Source of the DNA: Loktanella sp.
GTDB taxonomy: Bacteria > Pseudomonadota > Alphaproteobacteria > Rhodobacterales > Rhodobacteraceae
Direction of reading: 5' to 3'
Length of the DNA stretch: 64,000 nucleotides
Assembly (NCBI GenBank): GCA_017390475.1
Contig: JAFPBO010000008.1
Location: forward strand, 207,720-271,719
Shown here: positions 23,471 to 64,000 of the stretch, one piece after another
Position numbering within the stretch: position 1 is the stretch's first letter
Layout of the letters: the number at the start of each line of letters is the position of its first letter
Position numbers and translations under genes: made by a program
Notes under the pieces: model-generated
The model's input: only the letters and a program-made list of their open reading frames with translations
Told to the model about the DNA's origin: nothing
The model's database searches: none

Positions 23471-24634
23471 ATGTTCCACGCATCAATGACATTTGATCTG
23501 GGCGAGGATGTGAACGCGCTACGCGAGATGGTGCATGATTGGGCGCAGTCCCGGGTCAAACCGATGGCCGCCGCGATTGACCGCGACAATTTCTTTCCTG
23601 CCCAACTCTGGCGTGAAATGGGTGATCTGGGGTTGCTGGGTGTGACCGTGGACGAAGCCTATGGCGGCGCAGGCATGACCTATCTCGCCCATACCGTCGC
23701 GATCGAGGAAATCGCCCGCGCCTCTGCCTCGGTCAGCCTGTCCTATGGCGCGCATTCCAACCTTTGCGTCAATCAGATCAAGCTGAACGGGAGCGAAGCG
23801 CAAAAGGCGAAATACCTGCCCGGCCTGATCTCGGGCGCGCATGTGGGGGCCTTGGCGATGTCCGAAGCCGGGGCCGGGTCTGATGTGGTGTCGATGTCCC
23901 TGCGCGCGGAAAAACGGAACGATCATTACCGTCTGAACGGCCATAAATACTGGATCACCAATGGGCCGGATGCGGATACGCTGGTGGTTTATGCCAAGAC
24001 GGACCCCGATGCCGGATCGAAAGGCATCACCGCCTTTCTGGTGGAAAAAACCATGACAGGGTTCAGCACATCCCCCCATTTCGACAAGCTCGGCATGCGG
24101 GGATCGAACACGGCAGAACTGATTTTTGATGATGTCGCCGTGCCGTTCGAAAATGTGCTGGGCGAGGAAGGCCGCGGTGTCCGCGTGTTGATGTCGGGGC
24201 TGGATTACGAACGTGTCGTGCTGGCGGGCATAGGGCTCGGGATCATGGCCGCCTGTCTGGATGAGATCATGCCCTATCTGGCGTCACGTAAACAATTCGG
24301 CCAGCCCATCGGCAATTTCCAACTGATGCAGGGCAAGATCGCCGATATGTATACGGCGATGAATTCCGCCCGCGCCTATGTCTATGCCGTGGCTCAGGCC
24401 TGCGACAATGGCACTGTCACAAGGCAGGACGCCGCCGCCTGCTGTCTGTATGCATCAGAAGAGGCGATGAAACAGGCGCATCAGGCTGTGCAGGCCATGG
24501 GCGGTGCCGGGTTCCTGACTGACGCTCCCGTCGCGCGGCTGTTTCGCGACGCCAAGCTGATGGAGATCGGCGCAGGCACATCGGAAATCCGCCGCATGCT
24601 GGTGGGCCGCGAAATGATGGGGGCGATGGGGTGA
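23471..24634 (+). CDS. ivd: Isovaleryl-CoA dehydrogenase
   Basis: FAD acyl-CoA dehydrogenase that converts isovaleryl-CoA to 3-methylcrotonyl-CoA in leucine breakdown, 387 residues. Family features are [42 protein letters not shown] and [17 protein letters not shown]. The catalytic Glu sits at about residue 247 in GLDYERVVL, the helix-G position used by isovaleryl-CoA dehydrogenases rather than the more C-terminal position of most acyl-CoA dehydrogenases. GGGGGGAG lies before the ATG. It opens the liu operon, whose later genes (mccB, mccA, HMG-CoA lyase, hydratase) confirm the pathway. The stop overlaps the next GTG start by 4 bases. Confidence 0.94.
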
Positions 24635-25116
24635 AGATTGCCGCGCTCGCCCTGCTGATGCTGCCCGCTGCCGCGCTGGCGCAGGACGACTGGCTTTACA
24701 CGCCGATGGTGGAGGCTTGCCTTGCCAGTGGCGACAGGCTCTGTATCGGCGATGCCGCCACGATCTGCATGGCAGATGAAGATGACGGCGAAACCACCTT
24801 TGGCATGATGACCTGCCTGTCGGCAGAGGCGCAGGTCTGGGATGACCTGCTGAACGCCGCATATGCCAAGGCCCGCGATTTCGCCCGCGAGATGGACGCA
24901 GGCGAGGCAGAGTTTTTCCCGGAATTCGCGATCCGCGCAGATCAGGTGCAGGCGGCGCAACGGGCCTGGATCGGCTTTCGCGATGCCAATTGCGCGATGC
25001 AATACGGGCTGTGGGGCGCGGGCTCCATGCGCCAGATTGCGGGGGCGGATTGCCGGCTGCGGATGACTGCGGATCGCACGTTCGATCTGCGTGACTACTA
25101 CAGCAGCGTACCATGA
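24631..25116 (+). CDS. LprI-like (DUF1311) periplasmic protein in the liu operon
   Basis: A 161-residue exported protein with signal peptide [18 protein letters not shown]. The C-terminal half matches the lysozyme-inhibitor LprI/DUF1311 pattern: [12 protein letters not shown], then [18 protein letters not shown], the Gly-Ser segment, and [18 protein letters not shown]. Six Cys suggest disulphides. It starts with GTG at 24631, overlapping the ivd stop (GTGA), and ends in an ATGA overlap with the next gene. An envelope protein is therefore co-translated with leucine-degradation enzymes. Why it is there is not evident. Confidence 0.8.
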
Positions 25117-25406
25117 GACGCTGGATATTCTTCATCCCCGTCGCAGGGCTGGTCGTAGTGGCGGGCATTGTCGGCTATCGCATGGGGCAGGTGCCGGGCG
25201 AGACCGAGATTATAACCCGCTATGCCGCTACATATGTCGCGATGGAGGGCGATGATGCCGCGCTGACCGATTGCGCCGCGACCACTCATCCAGACCCCGG
25301 CGTGCGTCTGGTCATCAATTGCGCCAATCCCAACGGGCTGACCACGACATTCTATGTCGGCCCCAGGGGCGAGGCTTTGCCCGAACCACAAGGACCCGCG
25401 ACATGA
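25113..25406 (+). CDS. Small membrane-anchored protein of unknown function
   Basis: A 97-residue protein with one N-terminal hydrophobic segment ([24 protein letters not shown]), either an uncleaved anchor or a signal peptide. A small periplasmic part follows with two Cys ([11 protein letters not shown]...[10 protein letters not shown]) that could form a disulphide. I do not recognise the family. Four-base ATGA overlaps at both ends with the LprI-like gene and mccB show that it belongs to the operon. Codon use matches its neighbours. Confidence 0.7.
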
Positions 25407-26965
25407 GCGACCGCGCTTTGCATGAGGCCGCCCTGGCGCAGGTGGCCGCAGCCGCCGCCACCGCAGCGCTTGGCGGCGGGCAGGTCGCGCGCGACCGCCA
25501 TATCAGCCGTGGCAAGATGCTGCCGCGCGATAGGGTGGCCGGATTGCTAGACCCCGGCAGTGCGTTTCTGGAAATAGGCGCGACGGCGGCACATGGTCTA
25601 TATGACGGGGCGGCCCCCTGTGCTGGCGTGATCGCGGGTATCGGGCAGGTCAATGGTGTGCAGGTCATGGTCATCTGCAACGACGCCACCGTGAAGGGCG
25701 GCACCTATTACCCGATGAGCGTCAAGAAACACCTGCGCGCGCAAGAGATCGCGCAGGCTTGCCATCTGCCTTGCGTCTATCTTGTCGACAGCGGCGGCGC
25801 GAACCTGCCCAATCAGGACGAAGTTTTCCCCGACCGCGACCATTTCGGGCGCATTTTCTATAATCAGGCGCAGATGTCCGCACTGGGTATCCCCCAGATC
25901 GCCGTGGTGATGGGGTCCTGCACGGCTGGCGGGGCATACGTTCCCGCAATGGCCGATGTGTCGATCATCGTCCGCGACCAAGGCACGATCTTTCTGGCCG
26001 GGCCACCCTTGGTCAAGGCCGCGACGGGCGAGGTGGTCAGTGCCGAAGCCCTTGGCGGCGGTGATGTCCACACCCGCCTGTCCGGCGTGGCCGATTATCT
26101 GGCCGAGGATGATGCCCATGCGCTTGCGCTAGCGCGGCAGGCGGTCGCGTCATGTTCAGCACAAAATGCGAACAATGTCAGACGCTTGCCCTCCGAACCT
26201 CCCGCACTTGATCCGGCGAGCATCTTCGATGCGATCCCCGCCGATCTGCGCACGCCTTACGACATCCGCGAGGTGATCCGGCGGATCGTGGACGGGTCCC
26301 ACTTTGACGAATTCAAGGCGCGGTTTGGTGAGACTTTGGTCACCGGCTTCGCCCATATCGACGGCTGGCCCTGCGGGATCGTGTCGAATAACGGCGTGCT
26401 GTTTTCCGAGAGCGCCCAGAAAGGCGCGCATTTCGTGGAACTCTGCAGCCAGCGCAAGATTCCGCTGATCTTTCTGCAGAATATCACCGGTTTCATGGTC
26501 GGCCAGAAATACGAAAACGAAGGCATCGCACGACATGGGGCTAAGATGGTGACCGCCGTGGCGACAACGAAAGTGCCGAAAATCACGATGGTCGTGGGAG
26601 GGTCCTTTGGTGCCGGCAATTACGGCATGGCAGGCCGCGCCTATAGCCCGCATTTCATGTGGTCATGGCCGACCAGCCGGATCAGCGTCATGGGCGGCGA
26701 ACAGGCGGCAGGCGTGCTGGCCTCGGTGAAACGCGACGCGATTGAGCGCAAGGGTGGCGCATGGTCGGCAGAGGAAGAGGCCGCCTTCAAACAGCCGACG
26801 ATTGATATGTTCACCGAACAGTCCCACCCGCTCTATGCTGCGGCCCGGCTCTGGGACGACGGCGTGATCGACCCGCGCAAAAGCCGCGAGGTCTTGGCCC
26901 TGTCACTGGCGGCCGCCTGTAATGCGCCCATAGAGGAGACACGCTTTGGCGTGTTCCGGATGTGA
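25403..26965 (+). CDS. mccB: Methylcrotonyl-CoA carboxylase, carboxyltransferase (beta) subunit
   Basis: Carboxyltransferase half of the biotin enzyme that turns 3-methylcrotonyl-CoA into 3-methylglutaconyl-CoA, 520 residues. Crotonase-type carboxyltransferase motifs are present: [55 protein letters not shown], and in the second domain [14 protein letters not shown] and [11 protein letters not shown]. These are characteristic of MCC rather than propionyl-CoA carboxylase. The ATG at 25403 overlaps the upstream stop (ATGA), and the longer TTG-started frame is not needed. Its stop is followed in TGATG fashion by an A/T-rich unrelated gene, so mccB and mccA are not directly adjacent. Confidence 0.94.
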
Positions 26966-28185
26966 TGGGGAATTTGCTTGCCGATGACTATCTTTTCGGG
27001 ACGTGTGATTTCTTCTGTGACGACACTCTGGTAGGGCGTCGTCCATGTTACTTTGACCTTGTCCAATCTCGGTTCGTGCTTGGGTGTGAGCAGCTTGACA
27101 TGCTGCGCCAATATCTCCGACCCGCCAACATGGTTGTTTATTTTGAAAACATCACGTTTTTTTCGGTTGATCAGCGACTAAGCACAGCGAAGATTATTCC
27201 CAGCTTTTTCACCGACGATGAATTGCATCCGCGACGATTTCCTGAGGATTTTCAGATTGATGTTGACCCAGCCCGTTTCACGTATTGGGCAAAGTTCATC
27301 TGCAACGGCACCATCGAAATTTTTTCTGACAGACAGGATGCCCCGCCAGTCAAACAGGTGCTGTTGGTTCCCGGCGTAAAACAAATGAGATCTGTGAAGG
27401 CAATTGACCTTACCGACGACGTGAAGCTTTCTTCCAAAGACGGCCATCTTGTTATTGATGGACGCGCCGACTTATCCCTTGAAGAGATTTTCGCACTGGG
27501 TTTGGCGGTGGGTGGGCCGCTCAAACTTCATGCAAACATCGACGGAGACAAAATCAGCCTTGTCCTAAATCATGGACGAGAGGCTGGACGCTATCGTCCT
27601 TTTTTCCATCGTGCGACACCTGACGGAGTGGTTGATCCTCTGGCAATTGCGAATTCCGTGCCGCTGGTTTTCGGTGCGGCATGCCGTTTTCAGGACGATG
27701 GCCGCTCTGACCTGAGAATAATTTCCGAAGCATTTCTGGAGGTTTGGTCTGGCAGGCACGGGTACAATCTTAAAGCTCTTGCCGCATCACAAATCATAGA
27801 CGGGCTGGTGAAGGTTGGAACAGGAAACACGAATAAGCAGGCGGATGTGCCACAACTGAAAGCCCTGGGGCTTACGCACGACGAGGCTGAATTTGTGAGA
27901 GCTTTCAGAAACTGGATCGTGCATGGAAACCTTGATCTTTTAGGCTTTCTTGCTTCTGGTAAGCAGAATGGCTCCCAGATTATTGGGAAATCCGAGCAAG
28001 AGTTGTTTGCGCGCTTTGGCATAGGTGGAACGGGCGATGCGACCCTGAACTTTTTGCTTTCATTCGCTGCCAAAACTCTTCTTCAAAGAATGGGCCTCGA
28101 TGTACCGACCAGCCTTAACTGGCCTGTGAATGGCGAATTTTCGTTTGATCGGTTAAGGCATGATGGAGCATCAAGTGATGTTTGA
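26965..28185 (+). CDS. Unknown A/T-rich protein with a HEPN-like RN-x3-H motif, inside the liu operon
   Basis: A 406-residue protein that I cannot place in a named family. Residues 1 to about 220 look beta-rich, with no signal peptide. The C-terminal third is helical and contains EFVRAFRNWIVHGN. Arg315-Asn316-x3-His320-Gly fits the R-x4-6-H catalytic motif of HEPN domains, found in toxin and anti-phage RNases such as the ApeA/Abi-type HEPN proteins. Two sampled 60-base lines give about 47% G+C here and about 70% in mccA, so the gene looks acquired. Yet it starts in TGATG overlap with mccB and ends in an 8-base overlap with the mccA start, so it is fully built into the operon. A GTG three bases earlier is an alternative start. 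Function by motif only. Confidence 0.65.
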   Translation: MGNLLADDYLFGTCDFFCDDTLVGRRPCYFDLVQSRFVLGCEQLDMLRQYLRPANMVVYFENITFFSVDQRLSTAKIIPSFFTDDELHPRRFPEDFQIDVDPARFTYWAKFICNGTIEIFSDRQDAPPVKQVLLVPGVKQMRSVKAIDLTDDVKLSSKDGHLVIDGRADLSLEEIFALGLAVGGPLKLHANIDGDKISLVLNHGREAGRYRPFFHRATPDGVVDPLAIANSVPLVFGAACRFQDDGRSDLRIISEAFLEVWSGRHGYNLKALAASQIIDGLVKVGTGNTNKQADVPQLKALGLTHDEAEFVRAFRNWIVHGNLDLLGFLASGKQNGSQIIGKSEQELFARFGIGGTGDATLNFLLSFAAKTLLQRMGLDVPTSLNWPVNGEFSFDRLRHDGASSDV

Positions 28186-30085
28186 TAAAATCCTCATCGC
28201 CAACCGGGGCGAGATTGCTTGCCGGATCATCCGCACCGCCCGCGCGATGGGGGTGCGGACGGTGGCCGTTTATTCCGATGCTGATGCAGGCGCGCTGCAT
28301 GTGCAACAGGCGGATCAGGCGGTCAGGCTAGGCCCTGCGCCCGTCGCCGACAGCTATCTGCGTGGCGATCTGATCATTCAGGCAGCGTTGGAGACCGGCG
28401 CGCAGGCCATTCATCCGGGCTATGGGTTTCTGTCGGAAAACCCCGATTTTGTCGATCAGGTGACGCAGGCGGGGCTGGTGTTCATCGGCCCGGCGGCGGA
28501 GGCGATCCGCGCAATGGGGCTGAAAGATGCCGCCAAGGCGCTGATGATCAAGGCCGGTGTCCCGGTGGTGCCGGGGTATCATGGCGACAATCAGGACACG
28601 GCCTATCTGGCGCAGCAGGCGCAGGACATCGGCTATCCGGTGCTGATCAAGGCCGTCGCGGGCGGTGGCGGCAAGGGGATGCGCCTGGTCGAGGACCCGC
28701 GCGATTTTGCCGAACATCTGGCCTCGGCGCAGGCAGAGGCGCGGAATGCTTTTGGCAATCCGGCTGTGTTGATCGAGAAATATATCACCACGCCGCGCCA
28801 TATCGAAGTGCAGGTTTTTGGTGATGGCAAGGACGCCGTGCATCTGTTCGAGCGCGATTGTTCGCTGCAACGCCGCCACCAGAAAGTGATCGAAGAAGCG
28901 CCAGCCCCCGGCATGACCGCCGAACTCCGCGCCGCCATGGGGCAGGCGGCAGTGACGGCGGCACGGGCGATCGGCTATGCGGGGGCCGGGACGATCGAAT
29001 TCATCGTCGATAGCGCGGGCGGGCTGCGCCTGGATGGGTTCTGGTTCATGGAAATGAACACAAGGTTGCAGGTCGAACATCCGGTGACCGAAGCCATCAC
29101 CGGCGTCGATCTGGTAGAGTGGCAGTTGCGTGTGGCTGCGGGTGAGGCTTTGCCTTTGCGGCAAGAGGACTTGTCGATCAATGGTCACGCTTTCGAGGCA
29201 CGGCTTTATGCCGAGGATGTGCCAGCCGGGTTCCTGCCTGCGACCGGGGTGCTGGACCATCTGAAATTCCCCGCTGATGCGCGGATCGACAGCGGCGTCG
29301 TGCCGGGGTCGGAGATTTCGTCCTGGTATGATCCGATGATCGCAAAGATCACTGTGCATGGCCCGGACCGGGCCTGCGCTTTGCGCAGGTTACGGGCGGC
29401 GCTTGATGGGGCAGAGGTTGCCGGGACGGTGACCAATCTGGGGTTCCTGCGGCTGCTGGCGCGGGATCCGGATTTCAGCGCGGGCGATGTCGATACCGGG
29501 CTGATTGCGCGCGGGCAGGACAGTTTATGTCAGCCGGTGGTGCCGCAGCCGCGCGATTGGGCTGTTGCTGCGGTGGTCGCTGCGGATCTGCCGGACGGGC
29601 CGCTGACGGGGTTTACCCTATGGGCGCCATTGAACCGGGTGATCACGCTGGCATTGGGTGATGACCTACGGGATGTGACCTTGCAGCTGCATGGGCCGGA
29701 TCATGTCAGCGTGGATATTGCCGGAGAGCGGGTCGACCTGCGCCGTCACGGGCCGGGCTGGGGCCAGCGCGCCTTGCGGCACGGCGGGCGTGTCACTGTG
29801 TTTGGATCGCAGGATGTCACCTTTCGTATTGTCGATCCTTTGGACCGGGCGTCCGATATCGCAGGTGGCGATGTGGTGCTGGCCCCGATGCCGGGGCTGG
29901 TGCGCGACGTGGCTGTCCGCGTCGGCGATGAGGTGGTGCAGGGCTGTCGGATGATCGTGCTGGAGGCGATGAAGATGGAACATGTGCTGCGCGCACCCCG
30001 CGATGGGGTGGTCGCCAGTGTGGCTGTGGCAGCGGGGGATCAGGTCCGGGCAGGGGATCTGATCGTGGCCCTTGTCCCGGACTGA
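28178..30085 (+). CDS. mccA: Methylcrotonyl-CoA carboxylase, biotin carboxylase/carrier (alpha) subunit
   Basis: ATP-dependent biotin carboxylase fused to the biotin carrier domain, 635 residues. It starts with MFDKILIANRGEIACRIIR. Further motifs are the ATP-grasp Gly-rich loop GGGGKGMRL, ERDCSLQRRHQKVIEEAP, EMNTRLQVEHPVTE and, near the C-terminus, the biotinylation motif EAMKMEH with Lys599. The ATG at 28178 is preferred because family members begin MFxKILIANRGE and a GGAG box lies about 10 bases before it. Earlier ATGs at 28160 and 28163 add unrelated residues. It partners with mccB in the leucine pathway. The downstream birA-like gene at 50872 could biotinylate it. Confidence 0.95.
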   Translation: MFDKILIANRGEIACRIIRTARAMGVRTVAVYSDADAGALHVQQADQAVRLGPAPVADSYLRGDLIIQAALETGAQAIHPGYGFLSENPDFVDQVTQAGLVFIGPAAEAIRAMGLKDAAKALMIKAGVPVVPGYHGDNQDTAYLAQQAQDIGYPVLIKAVAGGGGKGMRLVEDPRDFAEHLASAQAEARNAFGNPAVLIEKYITTPRHIEVQVFGDGKDAVHLFERDCSLQRRHQKVIEEAPAPGMTAELRAAMGQAAVTAARAIGYAGAGTIEFIVDSAGGLRLDGFWFMEMNTRLQVEHPVTEAITGVDLVEWQLRVAAGEALPLRQEDLSINGHAFEARLYAEDVPAGFLPATGVLDHLKFPADARIDSGVVPGSEISSWYDPMIAKITVHGPDRACALRRLRAALDGAEVAGTVTNLGFLRLLARDPDFSAGDVDTGLIARGQDSLCQPVVPQPRDWAVAAVVAADLPDGPLTGFTLWAPLNRVITLALGDDLRDVTLQLHGPDHVSVDIAGERVDLRRHGPGWGQRALRHGGRVTVFGSQDVTFRIVDPLDRASDIAGGDVVLAPMPGLVRDVAVRVGDEVVQGCRMIVLEAMKMEHVLRAPRDGVVASVAVAAGDQVRAGDLIVALVPD

Positions 30086-32814: not shown

Positions 32815-33432
32815 ATGACCGAAGCCTTGCAAGAACTTGGCCTGCATCTGGAAATGAAGCGCACCGATTGCGTTCAATCATGGGACATCGCGCATGGTGA
32901 ACTGAACGTCACGGTCGCGCCATCCTCGCTGGTCAGCTTTGTGGAATTTCTCAAGACTGATTCTGTCTGCCGGTTTTCATCCTTGGTGGACATTACGGCG
33001 GTCGATTACCCCAGCCGGGTGAAACGGTTCGACGTCGTCTATCATTTCCTCAGCATGTATCAGAACCAGCGTATCCGTCTGCGCTGCCAGATCCGCGAAG
33101 AAGACATGATGCCCTCGATCATCGGGGTGCATCCTGCGGCCAATTGGTTTGAACGGGAAGTGTTCGATATGTTCGGCATCCTTTTTTCGGGTCATCCTGA
33201 TCTGCGTCGTATCCTGACGGATTACGGTTTTCGCGGTCATCCCTTGCGCAAGGACTTTCCGACGACAGGCTATACCGAGGTCCGCTATGACGAGGTGCAG
33301 AAACGTGTCGTTTATGAACCTGTCAGCCTTGTGCAGGAATACCGGCAGTTTGATTTCATGTCGCCATGGGAAGGCGCGCAATATGTGCTGCCCGGCGACG
33401 AAAAAACCACGTCAGAGGCAAAGCCGAAGTGA
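32815..33432 (+). CDS. nuoC: NADH-quinone oxidoreductase subunit C
   Basis: The 30-kDa peripheral subunit, 205 residues, separate from NuoD as in most alphaproteobacteria. The signature [41 protein letters not shown] is present in the second half. It lies 11 bases after nuoB. Its stop is fused in a GTGA overlap with a sulfotransferase gene that separates it from nuoD, an unusual arrangement. Confidence 0.96.
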
Positions 33433-34328
33433 CAGATGTGTCCGTGCTCTTCTGCGTTGGCGCGACCAAGGCCGGGACCACATGGTTTTACCGGCTGCTG
33501 CATGATCACCCGGATTGTGCCCTGCCTGCGGTGAAAGAAGCGCATTATTGGGATACGTTCGACGCTGAGGATCGCGAGAAACAGATTGCGGCCTTTCGTA
33601 TCCGGCTGCGCGAGATGCGTGAACAAAAGGCCGCAGCACAGGCCGAAGGGCGGGGCTGGCAGGTCGATAACCTGACCCGCCGGATCGACGACATGAAGGC
33701 GTTGATCGCCGTGATCGAGGCTGGTCGCGCCGATGACCGCGCATATCTGTGCTGGTTGACGCAGGGGCGCGGTCAGGCCCGGCTTTACGCGGATATGACC
33801 CCGAATTATGCCACTTTGCCTGATGCACTGTTGGACCGGATGGTCAATGCCACGCCCACTGCCAAGGTGGCCTATCTGATGCGCGACCCGCTGGACCGGC
33901 TGTGGTCGCATATCCGCATGCAGGCGCGCCGCCAGCGACAAAGCCACGAGATTTACGAAAAGAAAGCCAACAACATCCTGCACCGGATTCTGAACAAGGC
34001 GCAGGAGACTCATATTCTCGAACGTGGCGATTATGCTGGTGTGATCCGCAAATTGCGCCGCGTTGTGCCTGCCGAAAGGCTCATGGTGGCCTTTTCCGAA
34101 ACCTTGATGACACCGCAGGGCTGCGCGCAGCTTTGCGCCTTTCTGGGCATCACGCCGGTTGCGGACCTGCCGCAAGAGGCGGTGCATGAAGGCCCGCCGG
34201 TGGTGATGCTTGATAAATTGCGCCCACGGGCGCAAAAGCTACTTTATGAACAATACGACTGGGTGGCCCGCAATGTCGGGCCCTTGCCTCAGAACTGGCA
34301 GGACAATTGTGTAAGGATGACAGCATGA
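33429..34328 (+). CDS. Sulfotransferase-family protein inserted between nuoC and nuoD
   Basis: A 299-residue protein with the PAPS-binding signatures of cytosolic/Golgi-type sulfotransferases: [14 protein letters not shown] (5'-phosphosulfate loop, Lys14, Thr17, Thr18) at the N-terminus and [14 protein letters not shown] (3'-phosphate site, Arg152, Ser160). It would move sulfate from PAPS to a hydroxyl or amino acceptor, which cannot be identified. A charged helical insert covers about 45-105. GTG at 33429 overlaps the nuoC stop and ATGA joins it to nuoD, so it is expressed with complex I. Base composition matches the operon, so any transfer is old. No link between sulfation and complex I is known to me. 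Confidence 0.82.
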
Positions 34329-43933: not shown

Positions 43934-44434
43934 ATGACCAAGACCAATATGGATTACACCCGCGCCGCCAAATATTTCCTGCTGCAGGATTTTTGGGGTG
44001 GGTTTAAACTGGGGATGAAATATTTTTTTGCTCCCAAGGCGACACTGAACTATCCGCATGAAAAAGGTCCGCTAAGCCCCCGTTTTCGCGGCGAACATGC
44101 GCTGCGCCGATACGCCAATGGCGAAGAACGCTGCATCGCCTGCAAACTGTGCGAGGCGGTTTGTCCTGCCCAGGCGATCACGATTGATGCTGAACCGCGC
44201 GATGACGGGTCGCGCCGCACCACGCGGTATGACATCGACATGACCAAATGCATCTATTGCGGTTTCTGTCAGGAAGCCTGCCCCGTAGATGCTATCGTTG
44301 AAGGGCCGAATTTCGAATTCAGCACTGAAACCCGCGAAGAATTGTATTATGACAAGGCGAAACTGCTGGAAAACGGTGATCGTTGGGAATCCGAGATCGC
44401 CCGCAACCTTGAACTGGATGCACCTTACAGATGA
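43934..44434 (+). CDS. nuoI: NADH-quinone oxidoreductase subunit I
   Basis: Ferredoxin-like subunit holding [4Fe-4S] clusters N6a and N6b, 166 residues. The two C-x2-C-x2-C-x3-C sets are Cys67, 70, 73, 77 ([11 protein letters not shown]) and Cys106, 109, 112, 116 ([11 protein letters not shown]), each followed by Pro as expected. The N-terminal amphipathic helix ([23 protein letters not shown]) anchors it to the membrane arm. The stop overlaps the next ATG by 4 bases. Confidence 0.97.
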
Positions 44435-44829
44435 GCGATCAGAACCCCTTTGAACAGATGATGAAGATGAGCCAGGACTGGGCCAAGTCGATGAATTTCG
44501 ACATGAATGCCTTTACCCCCAAGGGTTTTGAGGCGTTGTGGCCCACCATGCCCAAGGATGCGATGGAAATGTGGTTCGGCAAGGGTATCAACCCCAATGG
44601 GCTGGATGCGAAAACCCGGCTGTTGCTGACACTGGCCGGCCTGACCGTGCTCGGCGCGCAGGCCGAAGCGCAGATCCGCCTGACCCTCCGCCATCTGGTC
44701 GAGGCGGGGGCGACAAAACAGGAAATCGCCGAAACCATCGCGCAGATGGGGATGTTCGCGGGCGTCCCTGCGATGACCAAGGCGATGGAACTGGCCAATG
44801 AAGTGCTAGAAAAGGATGACGAGGCATGA
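44431..44829 (+). CDS. Carboxymuconolactone decarboxylase-like (AhpD-fold) protein in the nuo operon
   Basis: A 132-residue protein whose C-terminal half ([69 protein letters not shown]) matches the carboxymuconolactone decarboxylase/AhpD helical fold. The redox C-x2-C of AhpD is absent, since the protein has no Cys. The catalytic identity is therefore unclear, and a structural role is likely. The N-terminal 50 residues are Met-rich ([17 protein letters not shown]). ATGA overlaps tie it to nuoI and nuoJ, so it is made in step with the membrane arm. Confidence 0.8.
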
Positions 44830-62966: not shown

Positions 62967-63533
62967 CTAGCCGCCATTCGTTTTCGACCGACCCCTCTTG
63001 GTTTGCCGCTTGGCCTCACGGAAATAGTGGATAAGCGCTCCGTCGATTTTGGGCTTGTTAATCGCCTTAAAGAGCCGATTGATTTCGGCGACGCCAGAGT
63101 CTTCTGCTGCCATTCGCAGTGCCTCTTTCCGCATCTGGCGGTAGTGATCGAGCATCTCTGGCTTGTCGTGATCGCTAGCCGCGTGAATTTCTTCGACGCC
63201 CATAAACAAGGCCATACAGTGAACAGTTAGATCCTCGTCAAGATAGAGGCTGTTCTTCTCTATAAATTCGATCATTCTGTGAACCACAACGCCAATCAAC
63301 TCTTGGCGTTGTTCCTCTGTAAAATCGTCTCTCTCGATGACCTCGTCTGCTACTTTGCTGCCCTGATAAATCTGCTCTATTAGCCCTTCATACGCTGCTA
63401 GGCGCTTCTCAAAAATCTTGGGCGCATAGAGTTCCCGACGGTTTCGACGGCGCATGAACTCGTTGAGCAGCACGCCAACGATGACCCCCAAAATGCCGAA
63501 AACTGGCCCAAAGATTGGGAAGTATTCGTTCAT
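62967..63533 (-). CDS. A/T-rich membrane-anchored helical protein, unknown
   Basis: A 188-residue protein with one N-terminal membrane segment (about 5-24, FPIFGPVFGILGVIVGVLLNEF). Then comes a highly charged, probably coiled-coil part (RRRNRRELYAPKIFEKRLAAYEGLIEQIYQG...) and a basic C-terminus (REAKRQTKRGRSKTNGG). I know no matching family. A sampled 60-base line has about 45% G+C, well below the surrounding genes, which suggests acquisition. Its ATG overlaps the stop of the upstream small gene (ATGA), so the two are co-translated. The arrangement (membrane anchor, coiled coil, HTH-like partner) is seen in some small defence or toxin modules, but there is no direct evidence here. Confidence 0.66.
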   Translation of the reverse strand: MNEYFPIFGPVFGILGVIVGVLLNEFMRRRNRRELYAPKIFEKRLAAYEGLIEQIYQGSKVADEVIERDDFTEEQRQELIGVVVHRMIEFIEKNSLYLDEDLTVHCMALFMGVEEIHAASDHDKPEMLDHYRQMRKEALRMAAEDSGVAEINRLFKAINKPKIDGALIHYFREAKRQTKRGRSKTNGG

Positions 63534-63751
63534 TCGGCGTTCGAAGCTGTGGGAAGTGGGTTGCGAGAAATTAGAGGCCACACTTCTTTGTCTGTCTTCA
63601 TTAACCCTCGGGCTCCGATTTCGATCAGTAGGGCGCGCGTGGCATCACGGTCCGCGCCGATGATATGCGCCAAGGTGTTCACGGACATCCACCCGGCTTC
63701 TCCGGCCGTCAACAGCGTTTTCTTCAATAAATCCTTTCGAAACTCATTCAT
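63530..63751 (-). CDS. Small winged-helix-like protein
   Basis: A 73-residue protein whose middle (TAGEAGWMSVNTLAHIIGADRDATRALLIEIGARGLMKTDKEVWPL) reads like a compact winged helix: a helix, a recognition helix after IIGADRDATR, then a beta-wing. It could control its own operon or the downstream membrane protein. ATGA overlap joins it to that gene. A GGAGAG stretch lies about 12 bases before ATG 63751. Low G+C like its partner. The assignment is by pattern only. Confidence 0.55.
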   Translation of the reverse strand: MNEFRKDLLKKTLLTAGEAGWMSVNTLAHIIGADRDATRALLIEIGARGLMKTDKEVWPLISRNPLPTASNAE

Positions 63752-64000
63752 TCGGGATCGCTCTCCGCCTTTGAGATGATGGGTCAGCTACGTGCTTCTC
63801 AGTGTACCCAAGATGCATATGGCCGCACCCGCCAATACCGCCCATTCGCCGCCTGCCATACTTAACCCGAATTATTCATGAGGGGTTGGCGAGGGTAGCT
63901 TAAGCGTTTGAAAGGATGTATTTTTTGGTTGTCTCGACCAAAAATGCAAATTCCAAAGCCCGGCACCCTCACCATGAAACACTCTATCTCCACAGCACCA
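63752..64000. other. A/T-rich region at the window end
   Basis: These 249 bases hold no gene that I can support. An AT-rich dyad, TTTTTGGT/ACCAAAAA (63922-63929, 63937-63944), could be a terminator-like or operator element. An ATG at 63974 opens a nine-codon frame to the window edge, but without a ribosome-binding site. It may be the start of a rightward gene outside the window. Confidence 0.3.

Follow-up and report, generated by a model that had tools for sequence, protein, structure and literature searches.

A probably acquired orphan gene at the mccB-mccA junction of a leucine-degradation operon in Loktanella sp.

Orphan genes that hitchhike inside conserved operons (ORFan hitchhikers) are an established concept in the literature on operon evolution. 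The HEPN RNases offer a comparison of another kind: according to PMC3710099, their hallmarks include a polar residue (N, D or H) immediately following the catalytic R and a second acidic motif, typically Ex3[KR], which usually lies upstream. Within this superfamily, the same paper describes ApeA-NTD1 as a domain of approximately 300 aa that consists mostly of strands and is abundant yet poorly conserved.

The window studied here is a stretch of 64,000 nucleotides from Loktanella sp. that contains gene X (positions 26965 to 28185, forward strand), an intact open reading frame for an orphan protein of 406 aa with about 49% G+C, identified from the list of open reading frames and its translation. 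We take the genes of the surrounding operon to be ivd, mccB, mccA, hmgL and ech. Upstream of X lies mccB (25403 to 26965, forward strand), the carboxyltransferase subunit of 3-methylcrotonyl-CoA carboxylase, which was recognised by its homologues and its conserved C-terminal end and is 520 aa long when counted from the MSDRALHEA start; downstream lies mccA, the biotin carboxylase subunit (28178 to 30085, forward strand), whose start was placed by homology at MFDKILIANRGEIA. The reading frame of X opens with the ATG at 26965, a GTG at 26962 being a possible alternative from reading of the sequence. The mccB stop codon (TGA, 26963 to 26965) and this ATG have one nucleotide in common (TGATG), and the X stop codon (TGA, 28183 to 28185) runs 8 nt into mccA, starting with the ATG at 28178, which confirms the overlaps on both sides reported in the preliminary description.

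Both ends of the insert carry the same six bases, GTGATG, at 26962 to 26967, where the mccB stop overlaps the X ATG, and at 28175 to 28180, where they contain the mccA start codon; six base pairs is, by our estimate, about the longest match expected by chance in an 80 x 80 comparison, yet the two copies are in register with both junctions. A candidate ribosome-binding site for mccA is the GGAG at 28165 to 28168 (forward strand), which is still part of the 3' end of X and precedes the mccA start by 9 nt. A promoter scan of positions 26600 to 28500 returned no sigma-70-type promoter where chance would give 1.1, and two terminator-like sites, of which one falls within X (27586 to 27599), where chance would give 2.7; it therefore says little about the region. 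X fills the insert, the other listed open reading frames of at least 50 aa all falling within it in other frames, and no adjacent cognate antitoxin gene was found there, which makes it unlikely that X is half of a classical toxin-antitoxin pair.

Further genes of note occur in the window. An LprI-like gene (PF07007, E 1.3e-21; 24631 to 25116) sits between ivd and mccB and overlaps the ivd stop, and tblastn matches to it were found somewhere in 40 of the 99 operon stretches surveyed. The nuo operon likewise carries two additional reading frames: one that is sulfotransferase-like (33366 to 34328) separates nuoC from nuoD, and a short one resembling carboxymuconolactone decarboxylase (44431 to 44829) separates nuoI from nuoJ.

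The base composition of X sets it apart from its neighbours. Its G+C content is 49.4%, and 48.9% at third positions, versus 64.3% (73.4%) for mccA and 63.0% (74.6%) for mccB; ivd, the LprI-like frame, mccB, mccA, hmgL and ech all fall within 60-65%, with 70-76% at third positions. The preliminary description had given 47% against 70%, which was correct in direction and overstated the size of the gap, and its view of a single-gene insert of foreign composition is borne out. Codon use points the same way, as a CAI-like index gave 0.46 for X and 0.66-0.74 for 11 neighbours, the same 11 serving as the reference set. The distribution of G+C over the three codon positions of X (60/39/49) is that of a coding gene. 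The lowest 1-kb step of the window is 27001 to 28000 (G+C 0.50); the second lowest is 63001 to 64000 (0.51), where the contig ends. Listed inserts longer than 150 bp at the same junction in relatives range from 51 to 75% G+C, versus 50% for the X insert.

Among 40 genus genomes compared, L065 and L066 are nearest to the window by mccA (DNA identity 80.8% and 79.3% in mccA, 84.7% and 84.4% in mccB), and both have an empty junction, in which the mccA start overlaps the mccB stop by one base (TGATG; gap -1). X itself was detected in its own genome only, in sets that overlap and hold one genome per species (1/99 relatives, 1/56 genus genomes, 1/327 in a class sample and 1/398 in a phylum sample). 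In 394 family genomes there were four matches at E <= 0.01, namely the genome of origin and three spurious ones (E 0.001-0.01), two of which lie inside other genes (L002, L004) and one in a frame with stops (L003). Searches of plasmid and phage sets by tblastn yielded no relative, nor did scans of genome contigs and viral contigs, which reach close relatives only. The same gene at this locus with normal G+C throughout the order, which the preliminary description had named as a refuting observation, was not seen, X being found in no other genome of the genus, family, class and phylum samples. As no donor was detected, the acquisition of X rests on its composition and its absence in relatives.

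We surveyed the junction in 99 operons, 31 of them from 39 other genus genomes and 68 drawn, mostly as best matches, from the 155 further family genomes in which MccB was matched, some family genomes being omitted where a contig end was near; one locus had no mccA match (L099), leaving 98 junctions. The gap between mccB and mccA exceeds 150 bp in 54 of these, is 31-150 bp in 28 and at most 30 bp in 16; within the genus it exceeds 150 bp in 14 of 31. The two genes are therefore often not direct partners in the family, contrary to the preliminary description, which had regarded them as normally adjacent. Gaps of more than 150 bp are found at other junctions of the operon as well (ivd-mccB 90/95, mccA-hmgL 60/91, hmgL-ech 6/88). 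Eight genus loci (L068, L070, L073, L075, L077, L078, L084 and L087) have tight mccB-mccA junctions with a 5-nt gap, in which an ATG overlapping the stop of mccB shares its reading frame with the mccA ATG, two codons further on. Judging from this arrangement, mccA in these loci may have two starts, the first of which an insert could use.

The 54 longer inserts were typed by tblastn with hand-picked representatives. A staphylococcal-nuclease-like (SNase) gene and a nitronate monooxygenase (NMO) were each found in 14, a 224-aa protein without a name in 10, an ASCH protein in 7 (the match in L157 being partial), a macro-domain protein in 6, a 165-aa and a 97-aa protein, both without names, in 4 each, and a WapI-like protein in 3 (in L124 at 34% identity). 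The count for the 97-aa protein was reduced from eight raw matches, as those in L118, L133, L138 and L144 (approximately -42 to +2) reflect a tail of mccB inside one query and were dropped; L150, which stood apart in the clustering of reading frames, was placed in this group by hand. Single occurrences were what we take to be an SDR, a SnoaL-like protein and a 227-aa protein without a name, and L137 carries a presumably GST-like gene on the opposite strand. L100 and L116 were assigned to no group, and the only match in L138 is spurious. With one representative from each of nine groups, Pfam named SNase, NMO, ASCH, Macro, WapI and SnoaL and returned no family for the 224-, 97- and 165-aa proteins.

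Five of these genes are stacked in L115 and in L157, and four stand in a row in L136, with members drawn from the 165-aa, NMO, SNase, ASCH, 224-aa and Macro groups, while other relatives carry one or two genes of the same set. The shared stacks suggest, from comparison of the sequences, an ancestral accessory array that was lost piecemeal and not a series of fresh insertions; they weaken the idea of a hot spot of independent insertion, which is unproven. We found no mention of recurrent mccB-mccA cargo in the titles and abstract openings of literature on operon insertions and the mcc operon, a body of text that includes few subscription papers. The more general result is that a set of mutually unrelated genes recurs at the mccB-mccA junction in this family, a pattern open to testing as an ancestral accessory array whose members were differentially lost. 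X resembles this cargo as a short gene between mccB and mccA; the relatives' genes are co-directional in all assigned cases except L137, and some start at the mccB stop. Unlike them, X is a singleton that belongs to none of their families.

The preliminary description read X as a HEPN RNase from the sequence FRNWIVHG, which is indeed present at residues 314-321. The segment RNWIVHG (27907 to 27927, codons 315-321, forward strand) forms a HEPN-like Rx4H motif, R315-x4-H320, in which the R is followed directly by a polar residue, N316, in line with the HEPN hallmark. Upstream of it, D279xxxK283 (27799 to 27813, codons 279-283, forward strand) is a candidate for the second acidic motif with D in place of E, a weak hallmark since X has three [ED]x3[KR] sites in total. 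As controls we used 904 open reading frames of at least 250 aa, which come from 99 largely orthologous loci with overlapping frames included and are therefore not independent. The pattern R.{4,6}H alone occurs in 711 of the 904 and does not discriminate; RN.{3}H occurs in 23, and in 2.3% of 20,000 shuffles of X; RN.{3}HG occurs in 2, and in 0.22% of the shuffles; and [FILVMAY]RN.[ILVAM].HG occurs in none of the 904, figures to be read in the knowledge that the motif was picked after the sequence had been viewed.

Low-confidence structural models depict X as strand-rich up to about residue 200 and helical beyond about residue 225. Single-sequence AlphaFold gave a pLDDT of 35.0 for the full-length protein and, for the C-terminal part, an all-helical model that places the motif within a long helix (mean pLDDT 43.3, pTM 0.37); both models are too poor to judge the fold, including the four-helix core of two hairpins that characterises HEPN. 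With the C-terminal model Foldseek returned 47 matches, none at E <= 0.001. No Pfam family matched X at E <= 1 or two parts of X at E <= 10, HMMER filters removing most matches above E of about 0.1. PADLOC returned nothing for X, PDB sequences gave no significant match, and the matches in NCBIfam and PHROGs were non-significant and unrelated; among the matches dismissed as chance are a P4-primase model (E 0.19; 10.5 bits against a cut-off of 108.7) and phrog_35280 (E 0.043). As there is no significant family match, membership of X in HEPN is unproven.

The preliminary description had proposed a check against HEPN and ApeA-type domains; in our comparisons ApeA-type profiles did not separate X from decoys. 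The family PF18739 (HEPN_Apea) was found in one of 120 family genomes, other than that of the window, and relatives for profile building were taken from this genome, plasmids, other genomes and viral contigs; in one genome from elsewhere in the phylum (L170), an ApeA-like HEPN gene is broken by one in-frame TGA. Comparison of X with a five-row ApeA alignment (A1) by hhalign gave a probability of 0.3 on a scale of 0-100 (E 0.18). Against an ApeA HEPN profile of 12 rows (15 minus three incomplete ones), X scored -3.2 bits and its C-terminal part -1.5 bits, with 91 of 3000 shuffles reaching at least the score of the C-terminal part and 70 of the 904 real reading frames at least that of X. The corresponding counts for a profile of the whole length, in which the choice of start left some rows shortened at the N-terminus, were 125 of 3000 shuffles and 116 of the 904 reading frames. 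Membership in ApeA, attractive in a forced MAFFT alignment, is accordingly opposed by the hhalign and decoy scores, and is not supported by these sequence comparisons. X and ApeA (PF18739 with ApeA-NTD1) are alike in length (approximately 400-470 aa), in an RNxxxH near the C-terminus, in an acidic-x3-basic site upstream and, for X in the low-confidence model, in a strand-rich N-terminal part; they differ in that no profile similarity exceeds the decoys, and the ApeA start GYFWLP and block KYLD.KFLSL.QGLETYHRR are at best loosely present in X, in the forced alignment.

With respect to origin, we consider it very probable that X is a recently acquired orphan, a single-gene cargo that would have entered the leucine/isovalerate operon between mccB and mccA. 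Many relatives hold other co-directional genes at this position, which suggests that the junction tolerates newcomers such as X. The patchiness of several cargo families across the family, and their stacks of four or five genes, would also fit an X inherited vertically at the junction and lost in sister species, like the ancestral array; we regard this as very improbable, since X was found at none of the 98 other junctions in a phmmer comparison with 70 insert reading frames, a list that missed some insert genes (no match at E <= 10), nor elsewhere in the searched genomes, and its composition is unlike that of the host. In the window, X starts at the mccB/mccA overlap seen in the two nearest relatives, and mccA starts 8 nt before the end of X. 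X probably has no promoter of its own and would be transcribed with the operon; ribosomes terminating on mccB would translate X and then proceed to mccA, the GGAG in the 3' end of X presumably helping mccA to start.

What kind of protein X encodes is a separate matter, the two main readings being compatible with recent acquisition. About evenly poised, in our judgement, is the reading of X as an unrelated orphan, phage-derived or otherwise fast-evolving, in which RNxxxH arose by chance and the insert is neutral or otherwise functional: the searches gave no credible relative of X, and many decoys equal it on HEPN profiles. The full motif with its flanking G and hydrophobic positions, absent from the control frames, and the agreement of two further hallmarks speak against chance, and an unbroken frame whose codon positions follow the coding pattern suggests past selection somewhere. 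The same observations make it possible, if somewhat doubtful, and our best single guess at what the protein does, that X is a HEPN-type RNase of ApeA-like plan, with an RNA-cutting or RNA-binding helical domain (R315/N316/H320, D279xxxK283) after a strand-rich N-terminal sensor, a stand-alone acquired gene, perhaps for phage defence, that would use the operon for expression. The low-confidence all-helical model of the C-terminal part and the poor conservation of ApeA-NTD1 are consistent with this; the lack of any significant match among families and model-based structure searches, and a motif selected after inspection, weigh against it, so that of the original RNase reading the motif and two weaker hallmarks stand, while a family match and a profile score above decoys do not. 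Improbable, in our view, is the further step that X is the first member of a new family of HEPN RNases and that stop-start overlaps couple its synthesis to the leucine-degradation operon; such a nuclease, acting in defence or growth arrest, would be made only during translation of the operon, or be released upon its disturbance.

Should X prove to be a HEPN RNase, a defence superfamily would gain a sequence-orphan member that is expressed from a catabolic operon. If it is orphan cargo only, it provides a well-preserved example of a conserved operon that absorbed a newcomer with both neighbours intact, on a plan in which the newcomer begins at a coupled stop-start and contains, in its tail, the start of the gene downstream. 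Orphan hitchhikers of operons are an already known kind of gene. Like these ORFan hitchhikers, X is lineage-specific, sits within a conserved operon and showed no promoter in the scan, and it does not differ from them in kind; its own trait is a stop/start overlap that is tight on both sides.
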